NCBI RefSeq assembly: GCF_020523925.1
Contig: NZ_JAJAPW010000003.1
Span: 434,001-498,000 of the forward strand
Length of the DNA stretch: 64,000 nt
Source: Neotamlana laminarinivorans
GTDB taxonomy: Bacteria > Bacteroidota > Bacteroidia > Flavobacteriales > Flavobacteriaceae
Direction of reading: 5' to 3'
Each line of letters opens with the position of its first letter. Positions within the stretch are counted from its first letter, which is position 1. The notes beneath the pieces were generated by a model. It was not told the DNA's origin, made no database searches, and saw only the letters and a program-made list of their open reading frames with translations. Shown piece after piece: positions 37,320 through 48,218 of this stretch. Made by a program: the position numbers and the translations under genes.

Positions 37320-37887
37320 ACGAATTTTAATAGAAAAGCGACTCCTTACAGTTGCTTTTTTATTTTTTACATTACATATTTTGGCACAAAGCAATACACA
37401 ATTACCCTATTACCAAATCCCAGAACCTGCCGAACAATACACCGCTGGCTCAGTAGCTTCAAGGTTGGTAGATGGTTTAGGGTTCAGGTTTTACTGGGCA
37501 AGCGAAGGTTTACGACCAGAGGATTTAAATTATAAAGCTTCAGAAACAGGACGAACAAGTTTAGAAACCATAGAGCATATTTTATCGCTTTCGGTATTTC
37601 TTCTAAAAAATATTACTTCTGATGAATTGGTTGATATTAGTAAGTTAAAAACTTACGATGCCATGCGTAATCAAGCACTTCTAAACATAAAAATGGCTTC
37701 AGATATTTTAAGAGCTTCCGAAGATCTTTCGGTTTACGATAATAATAGGTTTCCGTTTTGGAATTTAATTAATGGCCCAATTGCTGATGCCATGTGGCAT
37801 TGTGGACAATTAGTTACGTTGCGCCGTGCTTCAGGAAATCCATTTAGCTCTAAAGTGAGTGTTTTTCAAGGAAAAGTAAGCGAGTAG
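37303..37887 (+). CDS. Secreted DinB-like protein (GTG start)
   Basis: A 194-residue protein with an N-terminal signal (about 13-28, HILAQ). The mature part is helical and resembles the DinB/YfiT fold, with His residues in TIEHILSL and MWHCGQLVTLRRASG, which could bind a metal. The GTG start, inside the end of the M28 gene, gives a plausible signal sequence; no ATG is available nearby. The function is unknown. Confidence 0.65.
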   Translation: MKLRNKRILIEKRLLTVAFLFFTLHILAQSNTQLPYYQIPEPAEQYTAGSVASRLVDGLGFRFYWASEGLRPEDLNYKASETGRTSLETIEHILSLSVFLLKNITSDELVDISKLKTYDAMRNQALLNIKMASDILRASEDLSVYDNNRFPFWNLINGPIADAMWHCGQLVTLRRASGNPFSSKVSVFQGKVSE

Positions 37888-37929
37888 AAAAGGAATTCAT
37901 TACAAATTGTAAATAAAAAAGTTTTTTTA

Positions 37930-37954
37930 GAGGGTTTTTTAGTTTACATCCGTT
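37930..37954 (+). promoter_or_regulatory. ECF promoter motif A (sigma gene)
   Basis: GAGGG, then 14 nt, then TCCGTT. The same motif with the same 14-nt spacing occurs at 38572 and 42053. It lies 99 nt upstream of the sigma ATG and is taken as a target of this sigma factor. Confidence 0.75.
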
Positions 37955-38005
37955 TCATATTAAACACTGTATTTTTTGTTACATAAAAGTGTTTAAATCA
38001 AACGT

Positions 38006-38013
38006 TATATTTG
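38006..38013 (+). promoter_or_regulatory. Housekeeping -7 element TATATTTG of the ECF sigma gene
   Basis: A perfect TAnnTTTG followed by C, 15 nt upstream of the ATG at 38029. With motif A upstream, the gene seems to have a basal and an auto-regulated promoter. No clear -33 TTG. Confidence 0.5.
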
Positions 38014-38028
38014 CTCAACATTAAATAA

Positions 38029-38568
38029 ATGGATTCAACCAAATCATTCACAAGTCAATCAATTTGTGAAGAATTTAATTTTAACACTACTTTTAATAAA
38101 CACTCAAAAGCCATTTTCAATTTTTTAGTGTTTAATTATCACGATAAACAACTCGCCGAAGATGCTGTGCAAGAGGCCTACATAACACTATGGAAAAACT
38201 GTAGTAAAGTGCCTGTTGAAAAGGCAAAATCTTACCTATACACCATAGCAAAAAATAAAATTATTGATGCTTTTAGAAATAAGCAAACGGTTAACAAGTA
38301 TGCCAATAATAACGTGAGCAATACTGTTGAGCAAGAAACGCCTATGTTTATTTTAGAGGAAAAAGAGTTTCATAAAACGCTAAACTTGGCGCTAGCCAAA
38401 ATGCCAGAGAAATATAGAGTGCCTTTTTTATTAAATAGAATTGAGAAAAAAAAGTATAAAGAAATTGCAGAACTTCTTGATACTACCGTAAAAGCTATAG
38501 AAAAACGCATTTATAACGCCTTAGAGTTTTTACAAGAAGAATTAGAAATTAGTAAAAAACGATTTTAA
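38029..38568 (+). CDS. FecI-type ECF sigma factor
   Basis: A 179-residue sigma-70 family protein with region 2 (about 25-95: LAEDAVQEAYITLWKN and YLYTIAKNKIIDAFR) and region 4 (about 115-170: MPEKYRVPFLLNRIEKKKYKEIAELLDTTVKAIEKRIYNAL). It should be held by the FecR protein encoded downstream and be freed by a signal from the TonB receptor. Motif A precedes it, and motif B begins 3 nt after its stop, in front of fecR. Confidence 0.93.
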   Translation: MDSTKSFTSQSICEEFNFNTTFNKHSKAIFNFLVFNYHDKQLAEDAVQEAYITLWKNCSKVPVEKAKSYLYTIAKNKIIDAFRNKQTVNKYANNNVSNTVEQETPMFILEEKEFHKTLNLALAKMPEKYRVPFLLNRIEKKKYKEIAELLDTTVKAIEKRIYNALEFLQEELEISKKRF

Positions 38569-38571
38569 TTA

Positions 38572-38596
38572 GAGGGTTTTTTAATTGTTATCCGTT
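38572..38596 (+). promoter_or_regulatory. ECF promoter motif B (fecR gene)
   Basis: GAGGG (38572-38576), 14 nt, then TCCGTT (38591-38596). It shares GAGGGTTTTTTA with motif A. It starts 3 nt after the sigma stop codon, 45 nt before the fecR start. Confidence 0.75.
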
Positions 38597-38616
38597 ATAA
38601 AAGTATGAATTAGGCT

Positions 38617-39519
38617 ATGGAAGAAAATAAAAAAATAAATATTCATAAGTTTTTAAATAATGAAATGTCTTCTAATGAAGCAGAATTGTTTAAAAAGTCT
38701 GAAGAATATCAAAAGCATAAAACAGTTATAGAATTGTTTGAGGATTCTGAAGGGATTGCTTTTGATAAAGAAAAAGTGTTAAACAACATTAATAATCAAA
38801 AAAATATTAAAAATAAAAAGGTGATTCCGTTGTACAAAAAATGGATTCCGGTTTCAATTGCAGCTTCTATTTTAATATGTTTTTCTTTGTTTTACTATGT
38901 TTCATTAAAACCAACTGCTTATAATACAGATATAGGCGAATCTATTGAATTTTCATTACCAGATCAATCTTTGGTTTGGTTAAATGCAAAGTCTGAAATA
39001 ACTCACAATAAAGATTGGGAAAACTCTAGAGATATCACCTTAAGCGGAGAGGCTTATTTTGAAGTTGCTAAAGGGAAAACATTTACCGTAAAAACGCCAG
39101 AAGGTATTGTCACTGTTTTAGGTACAAAATTCAACGTAAAACAGCGTGATCATTTTTTTGAAGTGCATTGCTTCGAAGGTTCAGTTTCTGTTAATTACAA
39201 TAATACTTTAACTGTTTTAAAAGCGAGCGATGTGTTCTCTTCCGAAGAAAATAAAAAACAAATAAAACACATTAATAAACCCAATTGGATTAACAAGGAG
39301 TCTGTATTTAATAATACGAATTTAAATGAAGTGCTTGCAGATATTAGCTTGCACTACAATGTAACATTTAATACAGACCAAAACAGTGAAATTGTATTGC
39401 TAAAATATACAGGAAGTTATAATTATTCTGATGATTTAGAAACCGTTTTAAAAGTATTGTGTAAGTCTCTAAATTTAAATTATAGTATTGAAAATAATAC
39501 TGTTTTTTTGAGTAAATAG
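38617..39519 (+). CDS. FecR-family anti-sigma regulator
   Basis: A 300-residue inner-membrane protein: cytoplasmic N-terminus (about 1-75), one transmembrane helix (about 77-96), then a periplasmic FecR domain (about 100-210) with SLPDQSLVWLNAKSEI and GEAYFEVAKGKTFTV. It ends with a DUF4974-like region. It relays the receptor signal to the sigma factor. It sits 48 nt after sigma and ends 2 nt before the receptor gene. Confidence 0.93.
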   Translation: MEENKKINIHKFLNNEMSSNEAELFKKSEEYQKHKTVIELFEDSEGIAFDKEKVLNNINNQKNIKNKKVIPLYKKWIPVSIAASILICFSLFYYVSLKPTAYNTDIGESIEFSLPDQSLVWLNAKSEITHNKDWENSRDITLSGEAYFEVAKGKTFTVKTPEGIVTVLGTKFNVKQRDHFFEVHCFEGSVSVNYNNTLTVLKASDVFSSEENKKQIKHINKPNWINKESVFNNTNLNEVLADISLHYNVTFNTDQNSEIVLLKYTGSYNYSDDLETVLKVLCKSLNLNYSIENNTVFLSK

Positions 39520-39521
39520 AC

Positions 39522-42035
39522 ATGGTAATATATAAAAAAGCCCTGTTTACGGTAATTATTTTATTGTTTTCAGTTTTTAGTTTCTCTCAAAAAAAGCACA
39601 TCTTACTTGAAACTCATTTAAAAAAAATTGAGCATCATTTTAAAGTGAATTTTAATTACGAATCTACACTTATAAAAAACACCTCTTGCGAAGTGTGTTT
39701 TTTTAATGAGAAGGAATCTTTAGAATATCATTTATCTGCTTTACATAAAGAATTACAGTTAGATTTTACCTTGGTTACCCCAACTAAAATTGTAATAAGT
39801 AAACCAGGTAAGAAGTATTTGTTGTTTTTTGATGCAGATTATAAAACACCCATACCAGATGTTTTTATTACAGATTATGGAACGAATAACACTTGGGTTA
39901 CAAATGCCAATGGAGAACTACATTTTAAAAATACAGTTCCTGAAGAAATAACAATTTCTCATTTAAAATACGGGAAACAAACTATAGTTTTAGATAGCTT
40001 AAAAGGTAACAACATAGAGCTTGAAAGAATTACGCAAAACTTAGATGAGTTATTTATTTACTCCTATTTTACTAATGGTATTTATAAAAACAATGACGGC
40101 AGTTTTTTGATAAAACCAGATAAAATAAACTTTTTAGCAGGACAAACATCGCACGATGTTATAAAAAGCATTGAAAATTTACCGCAAGTTGTTAGTAATA
40201 GCGAATCGGTTGCCGATTTAATAATTCGAGGCGGAACACAAGATCAAAATTTATTTGTTTGGAATAATATCAAAGTATACCAAAACCATCATTTTTTTGG
40301 GTTGATTTCTGCTTTTAACGAAAACTTAATTTCCAGTATAAATTTGTATGACAACGCTACGCCAGCACGATATGGTAATAATACGAGCGGCGTTATTAGC
40401 TTAGAGCATAATTCGGAAATTTCTAAAAAAACATCAGGAGGTTTAGGAATAAACTTTTTAAGTCAAGATGCGTATTTAAAAGTGCCTATTTCTAAAAAAT
40501 CTGAAATTCAATTATCTGGAAGAAAATCTACAACCGAGTTCTGGAAATCGCAAACCTATTTAAAATATTCAAAAAAAGTGTTTCAATCGTCTTTTGTAGA
40601 TTCTGAAAATGCTTTGCAGAATGATGATATTACAAATCAAGAAAACTTCAGATTTTATGATGTTCAATTTCAATATACCTATAAATTAAATGACAAAAAT
40701 ACCCTTAACGTTAACGGTATTTACTTAAAAAACCATTTGTCTTACACCGAAGAAGATGTGCAAAATGTAAATTCTAAAAAAAGTGATTTAGAGCAAAATA
40801 ATATGGCACTAGGCGCAAATTGGGAACATTATTTTGCTAACAAAAGTCAAATAAAAACTTCCTTTAACTACTCTAAACATATTATGGAAGGAAGCAATTT
40901 TTTATTATCTAAAGATATTGCAAGTAACGAGTATAACAGTATTGCGAATTACGAAAGTTTACTAGAATACACTTCTAAAAACTTTGCATCTGGTTTTAAT
41001 TACAGTTTAGGTTTTGCTTACGATTATTTATTGGTGGTAAATAATACAACCAATTTTAACTCATTGTTTATATCAAAAAAGCATCAAAATAATAGTATTT
41101 ACAATGTGTTTGCTGCTGTTAATTATCAAAAAAATAAAATAGATGCGGCGTTTGTGTTACATAATGCGTATTACGAGTTTTTAAACAGTAATCAGATAGA
41201 ACCTCGTTTTTATTTTACATATAAGTTTTCACCTCAATTTAATGTGCAATTACGAGGTGAACGAAAAACTCAAAATTTATCTCAAATAGTAGATTTAGAA
41301 AATAACTTTTTAGGCATAGAAAAACGACGATGGACTATGGCGAACAATACCGTTTCTCCAATTCAAAAAAGCAATCAAATAGATGTAACGGTTAACCTAA
41401 AAACGAATAAAAGTAATTTAAGCGCCGGCGTTTATCATAAAAAAGTAAATGGAATAACGACGAGTAATCAAGGGTTTCAAAATTTACATCAATTTGAAAA
41501 TCAATTCGGTAAATATATAATAAACGGATTTCAAGCCCACTATAATTTTAAAACTAGAAATTTTAATACCTGGATAAGTTACAATTATGGCGTAAATAAA
41601 TATGAATTTAAAAGTTTAGCGCCATCGGTGTTTTACAACAATAACGACATACGAAATCGGGTAATTTCTGGTGTAAATTATAAATACAAAGCCTTTAATT
41701 TAGCCCTAGGAATGGAGTATTATTCGGGAAAACCTTTTACAACTATTAACAACGAACAACCAATAAACCTAGGTGTGTTTAATACCATTAATTACAATAC
41801 GCCTAACACCGAGCGTTTATCAAATTATTTACGATTTGATAGCACTATAAGTTACCAATTTAATTTCGAGGAACGATTAAGAGTTAAAATAGCTTTTGGT
41901 ATGATAAATATAACAAACAGGGAAAATATTTTAAACCGCTATTATACTTTATCTGAAGATAAGCAATCTGTTGAGGTTCTAGATAAATACGGTTTAGAGT
42001 TTACACCCAACCTGTCTTTAAATATAGATTTTTAA
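39522..42035 (+). CDS. TonB-dependent receptor with STN signalling domain
   Basis: An 837-residue outer-membrane receptor. Signal peptide (1-23), an STN-type domain (about 25-90) that contacts FecR in such systems, a carboxypeptidase-like domain (about 105-165), the plug (about 195-300: VADLIIRGGTQDQNLFVWNNIKVYQ), then the barrel. There is no SusD gene, so glycan uptake by a SusCD pair is unlikely. Substrate unknown. The gene follows fecR by 2 nt; the next gene has its own ECF motif. Confidence 0.92.
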   Translation: MVIYKKALFTVIILLFSVFSFSQKKHILLETHLKKIEHHFKVNFNYESTLIKNTSCEVCFFNEKESLEYHLSALHKELQLDFTLVTPTKIVISKPGKKYLLFFDADYKTPIPDVFITDYGTNNTWVTNANGELHFKNTVPEEITISHLKYGKQTIVLDSLKGNNIELERITQNLDELFIYSYFTNGIYKNNDGSFLIKPDKINFLAGQTSHDVIKSIENLPQVVSNSESVADLIIRGGTQDQNLFVWNNIKVYQNHHFFGLISAFNENLISSINLYDNATPARYGNNTSGVISLEHNSEISKKTSGGLGINFLSQDAYLKVPISKKSEIQLSGRKSTTEFWKSQTYLKYSKKVFQSSFVDSENALQNDDITNQENFRFYDVQFQYTYKLNDKNTLNVNGIYLKNHLSYTEEDVQNVNSKKSDLEQNNMALGANWEHYFANKSQIKTSFNYSKHIMEGSNFLLSKDIASNEYNSIANYESLLEYTSKNFASGFNYSLGFAYDYLLVVNNTTNFNSLFISKKHQNNSIYNVFAAVNYQKNKIDAAFVLHNAYYEFLNSNQIEPRFYFTYKFSPQFNVQLRGERKTQNLSQIVDLENNFLGIEKRRWTMANNTVSPIQKSNQIDVTVNLKTNKSNLSAGVYHKKVNGITTSNQGFQNLHQFENQFGKYIINGFQAHYNFKTRNFNTWISYNYGVNKYEFKSLAPSVFYNNNDIRNRVISGVNYKYKAFNLALGMEYYSGKPFTTINNEQPINLGVFNTINYNTPNTERLSNYLRFDSTISYQFNFEERLRVKIAFGMINITNRENILNRYYTLSEDKQSVEVLDKYGLEFTPNLSLNIDF

Positions 42036-42052
42036 AAAACTTAATTTTTTTG

Positions 42053-42077
42053 GAGGGAATTAAAACCTTGATTCGTT
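42053..42077 (+). promoter_or_regulatory. ECF promoter motif C (lipoprotein gene)
   Basis: GAGGG (42053-42057), 14 nt, then TTCGTT (42072-42077). The same spacing as motifs A and B; it lies 31 nt upstream of the lipoprotein start. Confidence 0.7.
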
Positions 42078-42107
42078 TTAATTATATAACGAATTTTAAA
42101 AAACATT

Positions 42108-43106
42108 ATGAAAAACTTTATTAAAACACCCATCTTATTATTGTTAACAATTATCAGTTTTCAAGCTTGTACTTCCGAAGAAAATATAGAGGAAACAACA
42201 TCGAGCGAGTTAGCAATATCTCAAGATTTAGCAGCAAAAATAATTGAAACTGCAAATTACAAGAACGATTATAATTTCTTAGTATATGAGTCGGCGAATT
42301 CGAGTTGCGAATTTCCTTCAATGCGTTGTTATTTTTCTAATCCTGAAGGTGATTATTTTGTTTTTAATACTTACGAAGAATCATTAGAGGATTGGCTTAC
42401 AACATACAACCAAATAAAAACAGAAATACTGAGTTCTACCGGAATAGCATTTACTAACGAAGATTTTTTTATAGACCAAATGGACTTAAATACGGGCTTT
42501 TTAGGGATGTCTACCAGAGAAGAATTTATAGAATACTTTGAGAGTTGTAACGATGGAGGTATTGGAACTACTGTAGAATATGGCGTTCCGTTTTTAGAAG
42601 CCTATTTAAATTGCGACAATACAGAAAAAATTTTAGCCTTGTCTGGCGAATCCCTTACAGTTACAGACACGCAAGATTTGCCAGCAATTCAAGAGTTCCT
42701 GCAAGGTATTAATGCAAACAACAATACAAACTACAGTTTAGAAGATATTACACTGTTTAGTATTTATTATAAAAATATTTATGATAGTGATGAAAATATT
42801 AATGAAACAGATAAACTTTTAAATTATTTTGATGATTGTTTATTTAACAGAGACACTACTAATACCGATTGTTTAAACTTTGTGTATCCATTAGAATTAA
42901 ACCGTTTTAACCTACAGTTAGAAGAAGTAGTAACTACAACTATTGAAACCGATGAAGCACTAGCAGAAGCCTTTGGTATAGATGTTGGCGAATTAGGTTT
43001 TGTGTATCCTATTGAGTTATTAGGAGGAAATGGCAGCGTTATAACCATTGAAAATAATGAAGCGCTTGAAAACGCCTTAAATAATCCTGCTAATTACTGT
43101 AACTAA
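42108..43106 (+). CDS. Cys-rich lipoprotein with FVYP repeats, partner of the TonB receptor
   Basis: A 332-residue lipoprotein (Cys 21 in FQAC), with no named family. It has further Cys residues at SSCEF, MRCYF, ESCND, LNCDN, DDCLF, TDCLN and YCN. Two related blocks near the C-terminus, NFVYPLELNRFNL and GFVYPIELLGGNGSV, are followed by T/V-IETDEA and ITIENNEA, so they are tandem repeats about 60 residues apart. It is the third target of the ECF motif. It probably sits on the outer membrane with the receptor (inference). Confidence 0.75.
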   Translation: MKNFIKTPILLLLTIISFQACTSEENIEETTSSELAISQDLAAKIIETANYKNDYNFLVYESANSSCEFPSMRCYFSNPEGDYFVFNTYEESLEDWLTTYNQIKTEILSSTGIAFTNEDFFIDQMDLNTGFLGMSTREEFIEYFESCNDGGIGTTVEYGVPFLEAYLNCDNTEKILALSGESLTVTDTQDLPAIQEFLQGINANNNTNYSLEDITLFSIYYKNIYDSDENINETDKLLNYFDDCLFNRDTTNTDCLNFVYPLELNRFNLQLEEVVTTTIETDEALAEAFGIDVGELGFVYPIELLGGNGSVITIENNEALENALNNPANYCN

Positions 43107-43191
43107 AATTAATGGGCTAAGTTGAAATAACTAAAAACCTCAATTTTTAATCCTTAAAATAAGTTGTTATAACGGCTAAAAATTAATCCAC

Positions 43192-43296
43192 ATGCAAATC
43201 ATTAATCAAAACAAAAACAGTAATACGTTTTTAAACAAATTAAGTCAATTTTTTAAAAATTGTGCCATAGGAGCAAAATATGCTTTAGGACGTTAA
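43192..43296 (+). CDS. Candidate 34-residue peptide
   Basis: A frame encoding an Asn-rich start (MQIINQNKNSNTFLN) and an amphipathic C-terminal part with one Cys (FFKNCAIGAKYALGR). It lies in the 255-bp gap after the Cys-rich lipoprotein and is followed 10 nt later by a strong terminator, which favours a real transcript. No family is recognised. It could be a small export or signalling peptide of the neighbouring ECF system, but that is speculation. Confidence 0.45.
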   Translation: MQIINQNKNSNTFLNKLSQFFKNCAIGAKYALGR

Positions 43297-43306
43297 TTAA
43301 AAATTT

Positions 43307-43340
43307 AAAGTTCGGTTATGCTAGTAACCGAACTTTTTTA
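43307..43340. terminator. Terminator after the ECF cluster
   Basis: AAGTTCGGTTA (43309-43319) pairs with TAACCGAACTT (43325-43335), then TTTTT. It separates the ECF cluster from the convergent PepSY gene. Confidence 0.9.
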
Positions 43341-43361
43341 GGTGTAAATAGTAATTGGAAA

Positions 43362-44510
43362 CTAATTTAATCTTTTAAATGTTTTGCCATACCAAATAAA
43401 GAAACCAGTAATAGGCAAAGAAGCAATTAATAAACTAGCAATAAAAACAAGTATCTGTGTTGGTAACCCTCCAATAGTACCAACATGTAAATCGTAGTTT
43501 AAAGCTTGTATTTTTTCACCATTATTTTTATCGGAGAAATTGAAAGTGTTTAATAGTTCGGCGGTGTTTCTATCAAAATATAACTCGGTACGCTTATAGT
43601 TTTGTTCTCCTTTTTTGTAAACACGTATAATATAAGGTATGCTAGGTTTAGGATGCTTTCGAAGTAAAAGATATTCGAATTCAGGATAATGAGTTGTTAC
43701 TGTATTTAAAATAACATCAAACGGTTCTTTAGGGTTTATATTTTTTACAGGTTTAGAGAGTTCTGCATATGGAATGATTTTACCACCATTTGCAACCCAT
43801 TTAACAGATGCGTTAAAACTTTTAGAAGCCCAAATTAATCCGGTTAAGGCTAAAACTAAAGCTATAGTAAATACATAAAAGCCAAAAATGCGGTGTAAAT
43901 CATAATTTTTACGTCGCCATCTTGAAGTTTTTTTCCAACGAAACCAAAAACTTTGTTTACGTTGCGATTTTTTTGGCCACCATATAACGAGCCCAGAAAT
44001 AAGCATAATTACAAAAATCCAGGTTGCACCAGCAATAATATAATGGCTAATTGGGTTGTAGCCCATAAAGAGAGTCATGTGTATGGCTAGGGCAACATTA
44101 AAAAATTCCCATTTGGAGTTTTCTATATAAGTAATTTTGCCGTTATAAGGGTTTAGGTAAACGGTTTTGTAAAATTTCATGTAATTATGATAACCAAAAG
44201 TATTAGCATCAACATCCATAAAACTAATGCTAACTGTGTGACTGGAATCCTCTGGAATAACTACATTTTGAAAACTGTATTGGTTATTAAAAGCGCCTTC
44301 TGCCGTTTTTATAAGTTGAGATATTGGAACTTTTTTAGTTTGGTCTTTAGGAACTATAATTTCATGGCGGTCTTTGTAGATGAGGTCTTTTATATCATAA
44401 GAAAACACATAAATACTGCCCGTTATGGCTACAACAAATACTACAAGTCCAGAGGCTAAGCCTAACCATAAATGAATTTTTAAAAGAATTTTTTTAAAAG
44501 ACGTTTTCAT
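43362..44510 (-). CDS. PepSY-associated transmembrane protein
   Basis: A 382-residue inner-membrane protein of the PepSY_TM group with helices near 14-36, 155-178, 210-232 and 350-372. HLWLGLASGLVVFVVAITGS is the N-terminal signature. Two extracytoplasmic PepSY-like regions lie between. In Bacteroidota such proteins accompany siderophore receptors and may reduce ferric complexes. It is last in the operon of TonB receptor, DUF4374 and PepSY, with a hairpin before it. Confidence 0.88.
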   Translation of the reverse strand: MKTSFKKILLKIHLWLGLASGLVVFVVAITGSIYVFSYDIKDLIYKDRHEIIVPKDQTKKVPISQLIKTAEGAFNNQYSFQNVVIPEDSSHTVSISFMDVDANTFGYHNYMKFYKTVYLNPYNGKITYIENSKWEFFNVALAIHMTLFMGYNPISHYIIAGATWIFVIMLISGLVIWWPKKSQRKQSFWFRWKKTSRWRRKNYDLHRIFGFYVFTIALVLALTGLIWASKSFNASVKWVANGGKIIPYAELSKPVKNINPKEPFDVILNTVTTHYPEFEYLLLRKHPKPSIPYIIRVYKKGEQNYKRTELYFDRNTAELLNTFNFSDKNNGEKIQALNYDLHVGTIGGLPTQILVFIASLLIASLPITGFFIWYGKTFKRLN

Positions 44511-44520
44511 ATTACAAAAG

Positions 44521-44557
44521 AAGCTTCGAACTCATTTTTACAATGAGCCCGAAGCTT
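44521..44557 (-). terminator. Intercistronic hairpin between DUF4374 and PepSY genes
   Basis: AAGCTTCG (44521-44528) pairs with CGAAGCTT (44550-44557), with an inner CTCAT/ATGAG. On the minus strand a short CTTTT follows. It may reduce transcription of the PepSY gene relative to the upstream genes, or stabilise the upstream message. Confidence 0.55.
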
Positions 44558-44576
44558 TAATTTTAGCTATATGCTG

Positions 44577-45806
44577 TTAGTTTTTTAATAAAGAATTTAC
44601 ATAAACATTACTACCATCTAGTGCAGCCCCTTGTGAAAAAGCATTAGCACCACCGCCAATAGTTATTTCATAAATATGTGCATCACCACCAGTAACACTT
44701 ACAGGAATGTAAAATTTATCGTCTTCAACACAATCTAATGTAAAAATGTTTACAAAAGATGCATCTGGTAAATTTAACTCTGTTACCGTTTGGTTAATTA
44801 AATCTATTTCTACTAAAGTTCCTGTGTTTTGAGATAAGTCTCCCCATTCAGGAACATCGGCATTGCGAATTACATTAGCGTACGCTATACCATCAGCAGC
44901 ATACCAAGCATTCCAGATAGAAATTGGTTCACTGAAGAAAGAAGACACATCTAATACATAATCATCATCATAATCACCATTTGCAATTTTTACAAAAACA
45001 GAAGATTCATCGGCTACTTCATCGTGCCCATACCAAAGTTCGCTTGTAATATTATATTGGTAAATATCGCCAGTTTCGGTAGCAAACGTTCCATTAGTTC
45101 TGTAGCCTGCGGTCATACCTGCTGAAGCACTAGAAGTAATAATTTGAGCATTGGTTAAAGATGGGTAATCGTATACAACGGTATAAAGTTCATCTTCAAT
45201 TCCTGTCCAATCAGAATTACCGTATAAGGATCCGAAATAAATTTTTCCATTTTCAACCAAAGCATTCGACCATAAATTAACTTTTTCACCAACCGTAGGG
45301 AAGCTAATAAAGCCTGAACTTGTAGCGGCGAATGTTTCTATATCTATAATAGCATAAGGCGTGTAACCATCGCCGTTAGGATTGCTAGATAAAAATAAAT
45401 CGCCATTATCTGTAGCTTGAATGTATCGGAAAAAACCACCAGCAGTTAGTACGGCGTTAGATATAGCATCAACTTTAACTGGACCATTTTCAGTTAATTC
45501 AAATTTTTCAGTTAAACCTTCAGTATTGTTTATAACATAAAGATACCCGTCTACAGAAGCTGAAATATTAGACCACCCTTCATATCCGTTACCAACTATA
45601 GTTAAATTGCCACTTGTAATATTATCTGTAGTTAAAAAATAGCCTTCGCCATCTACAGCGGCTCCAACTAGGTAATCTGGATATTCGGCACTTGGAGTAG
45701 GATCACCACCGTCGTCGTTAGAATCACAACTAGTTAAACTTAACCCAAAGATTACAAGTAAAATCAGCAAGTTTGTTTTTAGTAAATTATTAATTTTTGA
45801 TTTCAT
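44577..45806 (-). CDS. DUF4374 lipoprotein
   Basis: A 409-residue lipoprotein with Cys about 27 (L-T-S-C-D-S-N-D-D). The start PDYLVGAAVDGEGYFLTTDNI and repeated blade-like segments suggest a beta-propeller. I recognise the DUF4374 pattern from sets encoding TonB receptors and PepSY proteins in Bacteroidota. It probably binds the receptor's substrate at the cell surface (inference). It lies 30 nt downstream of the receptor gene. Confidence 0.8.
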   Translation of the reverse strand: MKSKINNLLKTNLLILLVIFGLSLTSCDSNDDGGDPTPSAEYPDYLVGAAVDGEGYFLTTDNITSGNLTIVGNGYEGWSNISASVDGYLYVINNTEGLTEKFELTENGPVKVDAISNAVLTAGGFFRYIQATDNGDLFLSSNPNGDGYTPYAIIDIETFAATSSGFISFPTVGEKVNLWSNALVENGKIYFGSLYGNSDWTGIEDELYTVVYDYPSLTNAQIITSSASAGMTAGYRTNGTFATETGDIYQYNITSELWYGHDEVADESSVFVKIANGDYDDDYVLDVSSFFSEPISIWNAWYAADGIAYANVIRNADVPEWGDLSQNTGTLVEIDLINQTVTELNLPDASFVNIFTLDCVEDDKFYIPVSVTGGDAHIYEITIGGGANAFSQGAALDGSNVYVNSLLKN

Positions 45807-45836
45807 AGTTTTAAATTGTATTAATTTGATTTTTAT

Positions 45837-48218
45837 TTATAATTGAAAGTTAATTTTTGCAAAAATTGCTCGTCCTGGTTTTTGCAATAAAAAATTATCG
45901 TAAACCTGTTCGTTAAGAATATTGGAAACATCTAAAGCAAGACTTAACTTTTCAGAAGGAAAAGTATAACTTAACCCAGCATCAAACACCAATTGTGTTG
46001 GTACAACATCTTTTTGATCGGCAACGCCAAGACTGGGCCATCTTAAGAAAAATTCGTGTACGTAACTTGCTTGAAAGTAGGTAAAAACTTTAGATTCCTT
46101 TTGAAAAAGATCTTCAAGCGTGTATTCTATACCTGAATTGGCTAAAAGGTAAGGTTGATTTCTAAGTCTGTCTCCATAAAGTATATTGGAGTTCCCGTTT
46201 TCATCAATCTTTTGTTTATTTCTAATATTTTGATAAGTACCATTAAGGTTTATTCTTAGGTTTTGATTGTAATCGTAGATAATATCGATTTCGGCACCAG
46301 TACCTCCAATTTTTCTAATATTAGTGTATTGCCCCAATTCTTGGCCTCCAAAAATGTTTAGTTGAAGTTTATTGGTTACACTTCGGTAAAACGTGTTTAA
46401 AGCAATTTTTACGCCATGGTTGCCAAAACCATATCGTCCTAAAATAGTTCCAAAATTAATATTAAAACTTTGTTCTGGCTCGATTTCAAAATTAGGAGAG
46501 ATAGTTACCCCATCACCTAAAGCTTCGGTAGCACTTGGTAATCGTGTAGCCTGTTCTAGAGATGTTTTAATTAAAAATGAGGGTTTAATTTTGTATGATG
46601 CGGCAAAACCACCACCCCAATTATTAACATGGTTTTTATAGTTTATAATTTCGTATTCGGTGGTGTATTCTAAGTCGTTTATTGAGGCATTAAAAGCGTA
46701 ATATTTTACAAAAGCATTGGCTTTTAGTTTATTGTTAAATTTTGTGGTTTCTAAAGAAAGCCCTGCAAAATGAGAACCTATACTTTGGGGCTCAGAGTAT
46801 GGAATTCTGCTTTCTGCCGCAAAAGGATCTTTTCCTGTTCGTTTTGTGTTTGAAAAGAGGTAATTAAATGCAAGTTTAAAATTTAATGGTAATTTATAAG
46901 TTGTATTTACTCTGTAAATTTGAGACTTATCGTTTTGTGTGTAAAGTGAACTACCGTTGCGTCCAATTTCACCTCCCGAAGGGTTTGTGCCTATAATTTC
47001 ACCACGCCAATCGTACACATTCATGGTGGTATCTATAACGGTACTTTTAGTTTCAGAATATCCAGCGAAGGTGTTTATATCAAGTCCGTTAGTTAAGAAA
47101 TCTTTTTTTTGATAGGTAAGTGTAGGCATAATAACAGTTTCGTTATTTCGCATTTCGCCATACACATGCCCCATAGTTTGCCCTGTTTGAACGCCCTTTT
47201 TTTGATCTGAAACTAATAAACTAATAAAAAAATGATCTGTCCATTTTTTATTGGTAAAACCAAAATCTACTTTTGCGCTTAGCGTTTGGAAATCGTCATT
47301 GAAACGTTCGGCAGGATTGTCTTCGGTAAAATATATAGCCCTACCAGTACCTTCTTCACCATAAAAAACGCCTTCTCCCCATACTTTATAGTTATTATCC
47401 GAATAGGTGTAAAATGAAGAAAGTCTTGTAGTAAAGCCCGAATTAGATTTCCATTGGCCGTGTAAAGCTACTTGGTGTGTATTAAAAGAGCCAAAAGAGT
47501 ATGAGGCTTCTGCAAAATTTGAAGTCTCTTTGTTAGTCACTAAATTTATGGCACCTCCTAGCGCGTCTGAACCTAGGGATACAGGTACAACACCTTTATA
47601 AATATCTATACGTTCTATAAGAGAAATAGGTAAGTTGTTTATGGAGTAAGAGGATCCATAATAATCCATAGGAATACCATCTATAAAAAAGCGAATGGCA
47701 TTACCTGTTAAGCCGTTTATAGAATATTCAAAATCGGAACCAATGCCACCAGTAGACCTTACGTTAATTCCTGGTGCTTTATCTAAAACAGCATTTATGG
47801 CAACACTTTGATTTATAATTTTTTGAGTTTCTATGGCATCAACACTAAATCCCACTTCTTCAATTTTAGTTGATTTTGTTTTGCCTGTAACTACAATTTG
47901 GTCTAATTGTGCAGTGTCTTCTTGTAAAACAATGTTTTTTGTTAATACAAGGGTATCTATATTTATTGGTATTTCTTTGGTTTTAAAACCAATAGCTGAA
48001 ACTTTTAAGATATAGGTTTTATATGGTAAATTTTTAAGTGTATAAAATCCATCAAAGTCAGTGGCCACCCCATGGTTAGAATCTTTTATAATAACGGTTA
48101 TACCTGCTAAAGGTTCGTTTTTAGTGTTGGTAACTAAACCTTTTATAGTGCCGTTTTGTGCTTGAGTATAGCCTGTAAAGCTTAAAATAAAAACAATAAC
48201 AATTGTAATTTTGGTCAT
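45837..48218 (-). CDS. TonB-dependent siderophore-type receptor
   Basis: A 793-residue outer-membrane receptor. Signal peptide (about 1-20), a carboxypeptidase-like domain (about 22-105: GTIKGLVTNTKNEPLAGITV), the plug (about 110-225: KAPGINVRSTGGIGSDFEY), then the barrel ending FAKINFQL. No STN domain, so it does not signal through FecR. Together with DUF4374 and PepSY genes it suggests uptake of a ferric chelate. It is the first gene of a three-gene operon, divergent from a LytS/LytTR pair. Confidence 0.92.
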   Translation of the reverse strand: MTKITIVIVFILSFTGYTQAQNGTIKGLVTNTKNEPLAGITVIIKDSNHGVATDFDGFYTLKNLPYKTYILKVSAIGFKTKEIPINIDTLVLTKNIVLQEDTAQLDQIVVTGKTKSTKIEEVGFSVDAIETQKIINQSVAINAVLDKAPGINVRSTGGIGSDFEYSINGLTGNAIRFFIDGIPMDYYGSSYSINNLPISLIERIDIYKGVVPVSLGSDALGGAINLVTNKETSNFAEASYSFGSFNTHQVALHGQWKSNSGFTTRLSSFYTYSDNNYKVWGEGVFYGEEGTGRAIYFTEDNPAERFNDDFQTLSAKVDFGFTNKKWTDHFFISLLVSDQKKGVQTGQTMGHVYGEMRNNETVIMPTLTYQKKDFLTNGLDINTFAGYSETKSTVIDTTMNVYDWRGEIIGTNPSGGEIGRNGSSLYTQNDKSQIYRVNTTYKLPLNFKLAFNYLFSNTKRTGKDPFAAESRIPYSEPQSIGSHFAGLSLETTKFNNKLKANAFVKYYAFNASINDLEYTTEYEIINYKNHVNNWGGGFAASYKIKPSFLIKTSLEQATRLPSATEALGDGVTISPNFEIEPEQSFNINFGTILGRYGFGNHGVKIALNTFYRSVTNKLQLNIFGGQELGQYTNIRKIGGTGAEIDIIYDYNQNLRINLNGTYQNIRNKQKIDENGNSNILYGDRLRNQPYLLANSGIEYTLEDLFQKESKVFTYFQASYVHEFFLRWPSLGVADQKDVVPTQLVFDAGLSYTFPSEKLSLALDVSNILNEQVYDNFLLQKPGRAIFAKINFQL

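Follow-up and report, generated by a model that had tools for sequence, protein, structure and literature searches.

Which promoters does an extracytoplasmic function (ECF) sigma factor read when its gene stands next to those of a putative regulator, a receptor and a lipoprotein, and does its regulon end there? The question is raised by a stretch of 64,000 nucleotides (nt) from Neotamlana laminarinivorans (assembly GCF_020523925.1, contig NZ_JAJAPW010000003.1, positions 434,001-498,000, forward strand; hereafter the window), in which genes for a sigma factor, a FecR-type protein, a TonB-dependent receptor and a lipoprotein follow one another. Comparative analysis of these genes and their upstream regions suggested that the cluster is very probably a surface-signalling unit like FecI/FecR/FecA, the sigma factor of which would use G(A/C)GGG-N16-CGTT promoters at its own gene, at fecR and the receptor gene, and at the lipoprotein gene.

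Three sites in one gene cluster

Each of the three putative promoters consists of a GAGGG -35 box, a spacer of 16 nt and a CGTT -10 box on the plus strand. Site A (37930-37954; GAGGG at 37930-37934, CGTT at 37951-37954) precedes the sigma gene, site B (38572-38596; CGTT at 38593-38596) precedes fecR and the TonB receptor gene, and site C (42053-42077; CGTT at 42074-42077) precedes the lipoprotein gene; CGTT lies 74, 20 and 30 nt ahead of the respective start codons. A preliminary description of this DNA, which had written the motif as GAGGG-N14-T(C/T)CGTT, gave the positions and the three downstream genes correctly, and these are the sole exact matches in the window. It had also named a motif equally common in random intergenic DNA as grounds for abandoning the idea; 100 dinucleotide shuffles of the window gave a mean of 0.03 matches, and three matches were reached in none of them (0/100). 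Among spacers of 8 to 24 nt, GAGGG and CGTT were paired in the window at 16 alone. The search for the motif upstream of further start codons that the description had proposed returned only the three cluster sites: in the whole genome (3.62 Mb, 99.85% complete, 125 contigs), the exact motif occurs three times on the forward strand and never on the reverse, and a backwards control pattern occurs once and never, respectively. When one mismatch was allowed, 28 matches were found versus 37 for the control, without excess, and a wider regulon in this genome was rejected on that count. A looser pattern, GMGGG-N16-CGTT-N4-A, gave 17 matches versus 29 for the control in five genomes (table sums).

To identify orthologous clusters we used a receptor-alignment search, which yielded nine named loci (six Flavivirga species, strain Hp32 and two uncultured isolates) with receptors 54-65% identical in the best segment; a tenth match, a 26% fragment from a Bacteroidales bin, was excluded. 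The gene order sigma, fecR, TonB receptor, lipoprotein is kept in all nine. Across these loci and the window (208,475 bases in total), all 26 copies of G(A/C)GGG-N16-CGTT are on the gene strand, with none on the opposite one, and each lies 20-109 nt ahead of a reading frame of at least 100 amino acids; other spacers from 10 to 22 gave 0 to 3 matches per strand. G(A/C)GGG-N16-CGTT is the common form of the motif across the window and its nine orthologous loci. In these 26 sites the base ahead of CGTT is T in 65%, A in 27% and C in 8%, which makes the T(C/T) ahead of CGTT, as first described, over-specified. T also prevails in the five nucleotides that follow GGG, at 73-100% per position in the 26 sites, indicating that the spacer is not free sequence; site C of the window lacks the full T-run. 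By position, GAGGG-N16-CGTT is present before the sigma gene in seven of the nine orthologous loci (also seven when one mismatch to GAGGG/CGTT is allowed), and G(A/C)GGG-N16-CGTT precedes the first lipoprotein gene in six (eight with one mismatch). L248 and L110 (G273) have two lipoprotein genes, the second with a site and the first without. In Hp32 (L254, 9537-16509), five lipoprotein genes in tandem, the last of which is truncated by the locus end, each carry a GAGGG-N16-CGTT site, as does the gene for a secreted-type protein of 517 amino acids; a site also lies ahead of a gene for a 307-amino-acid protein; judging from this arrangement, the Hp32 locus appears to be an expanding regulon.

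Sites A and B have GAGGGTTTTTTA in common, as would be expected if the repeats were functionless by-products of local DNA duplication. The remainder of the three regions differs, as the preliminary description had noted; moreover, the sites persist at 54-65% receptor identity and are found in other genera in a shifted form of the motif, which makes such an origin scarcely credible.

Residue 80 and the -10 box in the sigma subfamily

We then analyzed related sigma factors in the family. With the sigma factor of L089 as query (expectation value, E, of 1e-46 or better), the subfamily was detected in 178 of the 397 sampled family genomes; the window sigma factor as query (E 1e-42) detected 65 of the 397. 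From 177 loci counted, 21 duplicates with the same core sequence and one short sequence (L069) were removed, leaving 155 distinct sigma factors. L079-L081, which are other ECF factors, were excluded from every sigma count; L004-L026, L082 and L083 were not entered since larger loci cover the same places, nor were L027-L033, which encode more distant ECF factors (E 1e-19 or weaker). The -35 words for these counts were picked after the first alignments had been viewed.

A forward site before fecR was found for 126 of the 155 sigma factors, a divergent site beside the sigma gene for 113, and both for 106. The spacer of 16 stood far above all others from 10 to 24, followed by 21 (12 and 11 sites) and 12 (11, divergent); shuffle means at spacer 16 were 2.0 (fecR), 1.7 (divergent) and, as a third value, 1.7. 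A typical relative combines TAGGG, or a word close to it, with TGTT or TGTC. The layout differs between sigma factors with asparagine at the position of window residue 80 (N80, n=138; fecR site in 121, divergent site in 112, forward sigma site in 4, near chance level) and those with aspartate (D80, n=15; 5, 1 and 11, respectively). The window sigma factor has Asp80, in region 2.4.

The same residue corresponds to the first base of the -10 box. Among loci with readable sites, all 130 N80 factors are accompanied by T and all 11 D80 factors by C, and residue 80 is the sole perfect split among the 179 positions of the window sigma factor; eight N80, four D80 and two K80 factors have no counted site. 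With the first -10 base left free, N80 loci gave T 241, G 8, A 2 and C 0 times (251 sites), and D80 loci gave C in 17 of 17 sites. This match ties the sites to the linked sigma factor.

In our alignment, residue 80 corresponds to N92 of Mycobacterium tuberculosis sigma-H, a residue that forms a hydrogen bond with the template base of a G-C pair at -11 (PMC6411747); this contact is the neighbour of the base that varies here. Aspartate may favour cytosine, and asparagine thymine, through hydrogen bonding. The idea of a code between ECF residues and promoter bases is not new, since Todor 2020 relates the two generally, according to the excerpt of PMC8103513.

A tree built without column 80 by a quick method requires three changes to D80, and its starred branches force at least two. 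The D80/C pairing thus apparently arose in two lineages, as far as these sequences tell. Outside the window clade D80 occurs in L089 (from G083, with an 8% contamination estimate), where TAGGG-N16-CGTT is present in the divergent as well as the forward orientation; L089 sits on a long branch, a placement that the tree tool flags as unsure. In both Asp80 lineages with readable promoters, a site also precedes the sigma gene itself.

Two other explanations of the sites can be weighed against this match. The first is that they are genuine ECF promoters read by another cellular sigma factor, or by several at once. The genome indeed has 14 matches to the window sigma factor at E 0.001, and in Flavobacterium psychrophilum several ECF factors may share a single CGT-box motif (excerpt of PMC9723704). 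However, the exact motif is confined to the cluster in its own genome, residue 80 of the linked factor predicts the linked site, and L070 (G000:C59:148500-160500), a paralogous sigma gene of the same genome, has TAGGG-N16-TGTC instead, both before fecR and divergent, so that we regard this explanation as very unlikely. L070 appears, from these sites, to be a case of different, parallel promoter specificity. The second is that the repeats are operators for a DNA-binding regulator. Three near-identical sites within a single cluster would suit operators, as would a -35 word that is not of the classical AAC type (PMC8103513); on the other side are the spacer of 16, the orientation of all 26 sites toward a gene, a -10 CGT as in known ECF promoters (PMC8103513) and the covariation of the site with sigma residue 80, in view of which operators are highly improbable.

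As a separate observation, L064 (G002:C32) and L067 (G000:C37) are D80 sigma paralogues that adjoin fecR and receptor genes with no promoter of the counted form.

The assignment of the three promoters to the linked sigma factor, which was the central proposal of the preliminary description, is supported by conservation in orthologues, by the fixed spacer at 155 sigma loci and by the match between residue 80 and the -10 box. Several observations weigh against it. At the fecR position, G(A/C)GGG-N16-CGTT is present in only three of the nine orthologous loci (six with one mismatch to GAGGG/CGTT); over the three positions in nine loci, a site with at most one mismatch is found in 21 of 27, and thus not all orthologues have all three; and the 26 orthologous sites are not independent events, given that the loci share ancestry. 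For the D80 factors L064, L067, L249 and L251, neither the sigma gene nor fecR has a site of the counted form next to it, and G147 encodes a full-length lipoprotein relative with no such site in the 4 kb covered. The -35 was not linked to any single residue of sigma region 4, because the -35 classes follow clades. Early hallmarks of ECF promoters were AAC in the -35 and CGT in the -10, AAC having later been dropped as a definition (excerpt of PMC8103513); CGTT is present at all three window sites, but AAC is not, the -35 being GAGGG in the window and TAGGG or near forms in relatives.

The genes and their surroundings

The sigma gene (38029-38568, plus strand) encodes a short two-region protein of 179 amino acids with Sigma70_r2 and Sigma70_r4_2 (Pfam) both above cut-off, as is typical of ECF factors. 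Its best curated family is TIGR02985 (Sig70_bacteroi1), of which it is not a member at 111.3 bits, below the cut-off of 126.4. Beside it, on the same strand, is the gene for a membrane regulator of 300 amino acids (38617-39519), a FecR-type protein by both FecR (3.2e-21; 76 bits, cut-off 24) and FecR_C (4.2e-14; 52.8 bits, cut-off 24.4). The gene for the TonB-dependent receptor (39522-42035, plus strand; 837 amino acids; Plug 5.3e-6) begins 2 nt past the fecR stop codon. Within the first 113 residues of the receptor, a candidate N-terminal signalling-type domain, residues 29-92 are FecR_C-like at 24.4 bits, exactly at the cut-off; for receptors of relatives the score was 26.6 bits in L254 and 17.5 bits in L246, and no match was listed for L252. 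An STN domain was unmatched in the window receptor and the related receptors examined. The FecR_C match of the receptor would be expected if its N-terminus and FecR had periplasmic signalling domains of one kind.

Upstream of the sigma gene, the preliminary description had placed a separate housekeeping -7 box that could give basal sigma expression. TATATTTG is indeed present (38006-38013, plus strand), and the same word lies between the site and the sigma gene in orthologue L109 (by eye). However, TAnnTTTG occurs 97 times in the window, the closest upstream TTTG is 27 nt off, and G001, a genome of the same genus, has CATATTTG in its place (by eye). These data hint faintly at a basal housekeeping promoter for the sigma gene.

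The lipoprotein gene (42108-43106, plus strand) encodes a Cys-containing protein of 332 amino acids with no match in Pfam (E 0.1; SusD included), NCBIfam, PADLOC or PDB sequences. Judged by sequence only, the receptor and the adjoining lipoprotein are not a SusC/SusD pair, no SusD-like match being found. The predicted structure consists of strand-helix modules (mean predicted local distance difference test score 77.7); Foldseek gave nothing at E 0.001 or better, and the best VIA-align hit (Z 4.5, root-mean-square deviation 5.0, 67 residues) reflects a common arrangement. When 14 members of the lipoprotein family were compared with Pfam, two matched Peptidase_M11 (best E 0.001) and the others more weakly; eight other lipoproteins gave sub-cut-off matches only, such as PB1 in L038 (E 0.0025). 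In the divergent lipoprotein of L053, cysteine-spaced stretches are Kazal-like by eye; Pfam found nothing.

A search of the genome contigs with the window lipoprotein alone detected no relative. Its full profile has matches in 124 of 199 family genomes; among the matches listed, four are full-length and the rest mainly cover the last third of the profile. The C-terminal module is common to lipoproteins that adjoin related sigma genes: the divergent gene bears it in 89 of the 138 N80 loci (E 0.01), and it lies downstream instead in 11 of the 15 D80 loci. The lipoprotein is probably, by this distribution, an old partner of the sigma family that changed place in the window lineage.

We also searched relatives for sites away from the cluster. 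GTAGGG-N16-TGTTNTA had 59 matches in 25 of 60 genomes versus 27 control matches (table sums). Forty-five of these are not fecR or divergent sites of mapped clusters, and 38 of the 45 were inspected; 14 of the 38 lie outside genes, 14-50 nt ahead of a reading frame, several of which are lipoprotein-like. The genes in L117 and L140 resemble the same lipoprotein family (by eye). L140 and L148 are within 3 kb of a sigma gene and therefore represent neighbours rather than distant targets. The regulon had been called self-contained in the preliminary description; this holds for its own genome, where no exact copy of the motif lies outside the cluster, but not in general, considering the extra Hp32 sites and those elsewhere in relatives.

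The unit also seems to be dispensable. In G001 (L035, G001:C37), the sigma frame stops after 106 amino acids and the sequence then matches the window near 43240 (by eye); approximately 4.9 kb corresponding to about 38340-43240 of the window (fecR, receptor and lipoprotein genes) is absent, and site A and the upstream gene remain. In G002 and G003 all sigma matches are more distant, the best having E values of 2.5e-36 and 2.8e-41.

No terminator-like site was listed on the plus strand within 37700-43500, so that read-through between promoters is possible. A terminator-like stem-loop after the cluster (43307-43336) is listed on the minus strand, and by eye there is a T-run on its plus side as well. 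Between the lipoprotein gene and this stem-loop is a 34-codon reading frame (43193-43297), which is partly kept at the edge of the G001 deletion (by eye). On the opposite strand, genes at 43362-48218 encode a PepSY membrane protein, a 409-amino-acid protein and another TonB receptor, which may form an iron-uptake unit of their own.

Relation to known systems

The cluster resembles FecI/FecR/FecA of Escherichia coli in its adjacent genes for an ECF sigma factor, FecR and a TonB receptor, and perhaps in an N-terminal signalling domain of the latter (weakly matched here). By analogy with these families, the receptor would bind its ligand and use its periplasmic N-terminal domain to signal to FecR, and FecR would free or activate the sigma factor. 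The latter would then, as the comparison strongly supports, direct RNA polymerase to the promoters before sigma, fecR-receptor and lipoprotein genes. From the layout, transcription from the three promoters may be additive and thus highest at the lipoprotein gene; more sigma factor would act as positive feedback, and more FecR and receptor as negative feedback together with more sensing. As a guess, the lipoprotein might aid ligand capture as a partner at the cell surface.

E. coli FecI acts on one promoter only, that upstream of fecA, and does not regulate fecIR itself (excerpt of PMC9249621); FecI-like factors are likewise named as exceptions to ECF autoregulation (excerpt of PMC8103513). Here, unlike in E. 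coli, one site precedes the sigma gene, another lies between sigma and fecR, and the lipoprotein gene is a predicted third target. With a site for its own sigma gene and three targets, as read from the sequence, the unit may be said to work like Fec but is not a strict FecIRA system, and it is unusual in its predicted targeting of its own sigma gene plus a lipoprotein.

Units of a FecI-like sigma factor, FecR and a TonB receptor in Bacteroidota are, we assume, grouped as TIGR02985-like. The window cluster shares this gene trio and differs from them in a sigma factor below the TIGR02985 cut-off and a lipoprotein without a SusD match. Motif SM6 of F. psychrophilum, a flavobacterial ECF motif with mapped start sites, also has a CGT box at -10; the genes listed for it do not form one receptor cluster but include components of secretion systems (excerpt of PMC9723704). 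In the M. tuberculosis sigma-H complex, GTT at -11 to -9 is read by sigma region 2, with a different -35 (GGAACA) and a different regulon (excerpt of PMC6411747). Among the matches listed in the open-licence literature, we found neither a promoter definition for Bacteroidota FecI-like sigma factors nor a description of this promoter or cluster, which does not prove that none exists. For a system of known type, the added interest is the promoter at its own sigma gene, the association with a lipoprotein and the match between residue and base.

These results provide a predicted promoter definition, which comprises the two boxes, their constant spacing and the genes targeted, for a subfamily detected in 178 of the 397 genomes sampled, together with a sharp and testable prediction that links one amino acid to one DNA base. 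If these are right, the promoters of many such systems would be readable from genomes, and the sigma-promoter pairs could be usable as insulated regulatory parts. It is conceivable, although we place it somewhat short of an even chance, that residue 80 is a natural switch of promoter choice (Asn80/T, Asp80/C), which would amount to a two-letter code between protein and DNA, and that the switch may accompany the conversion of a non-autoregulated surface-signalling unit into one that amplifies itself, is insulated and drives an expandable set of surface lipoproteins.

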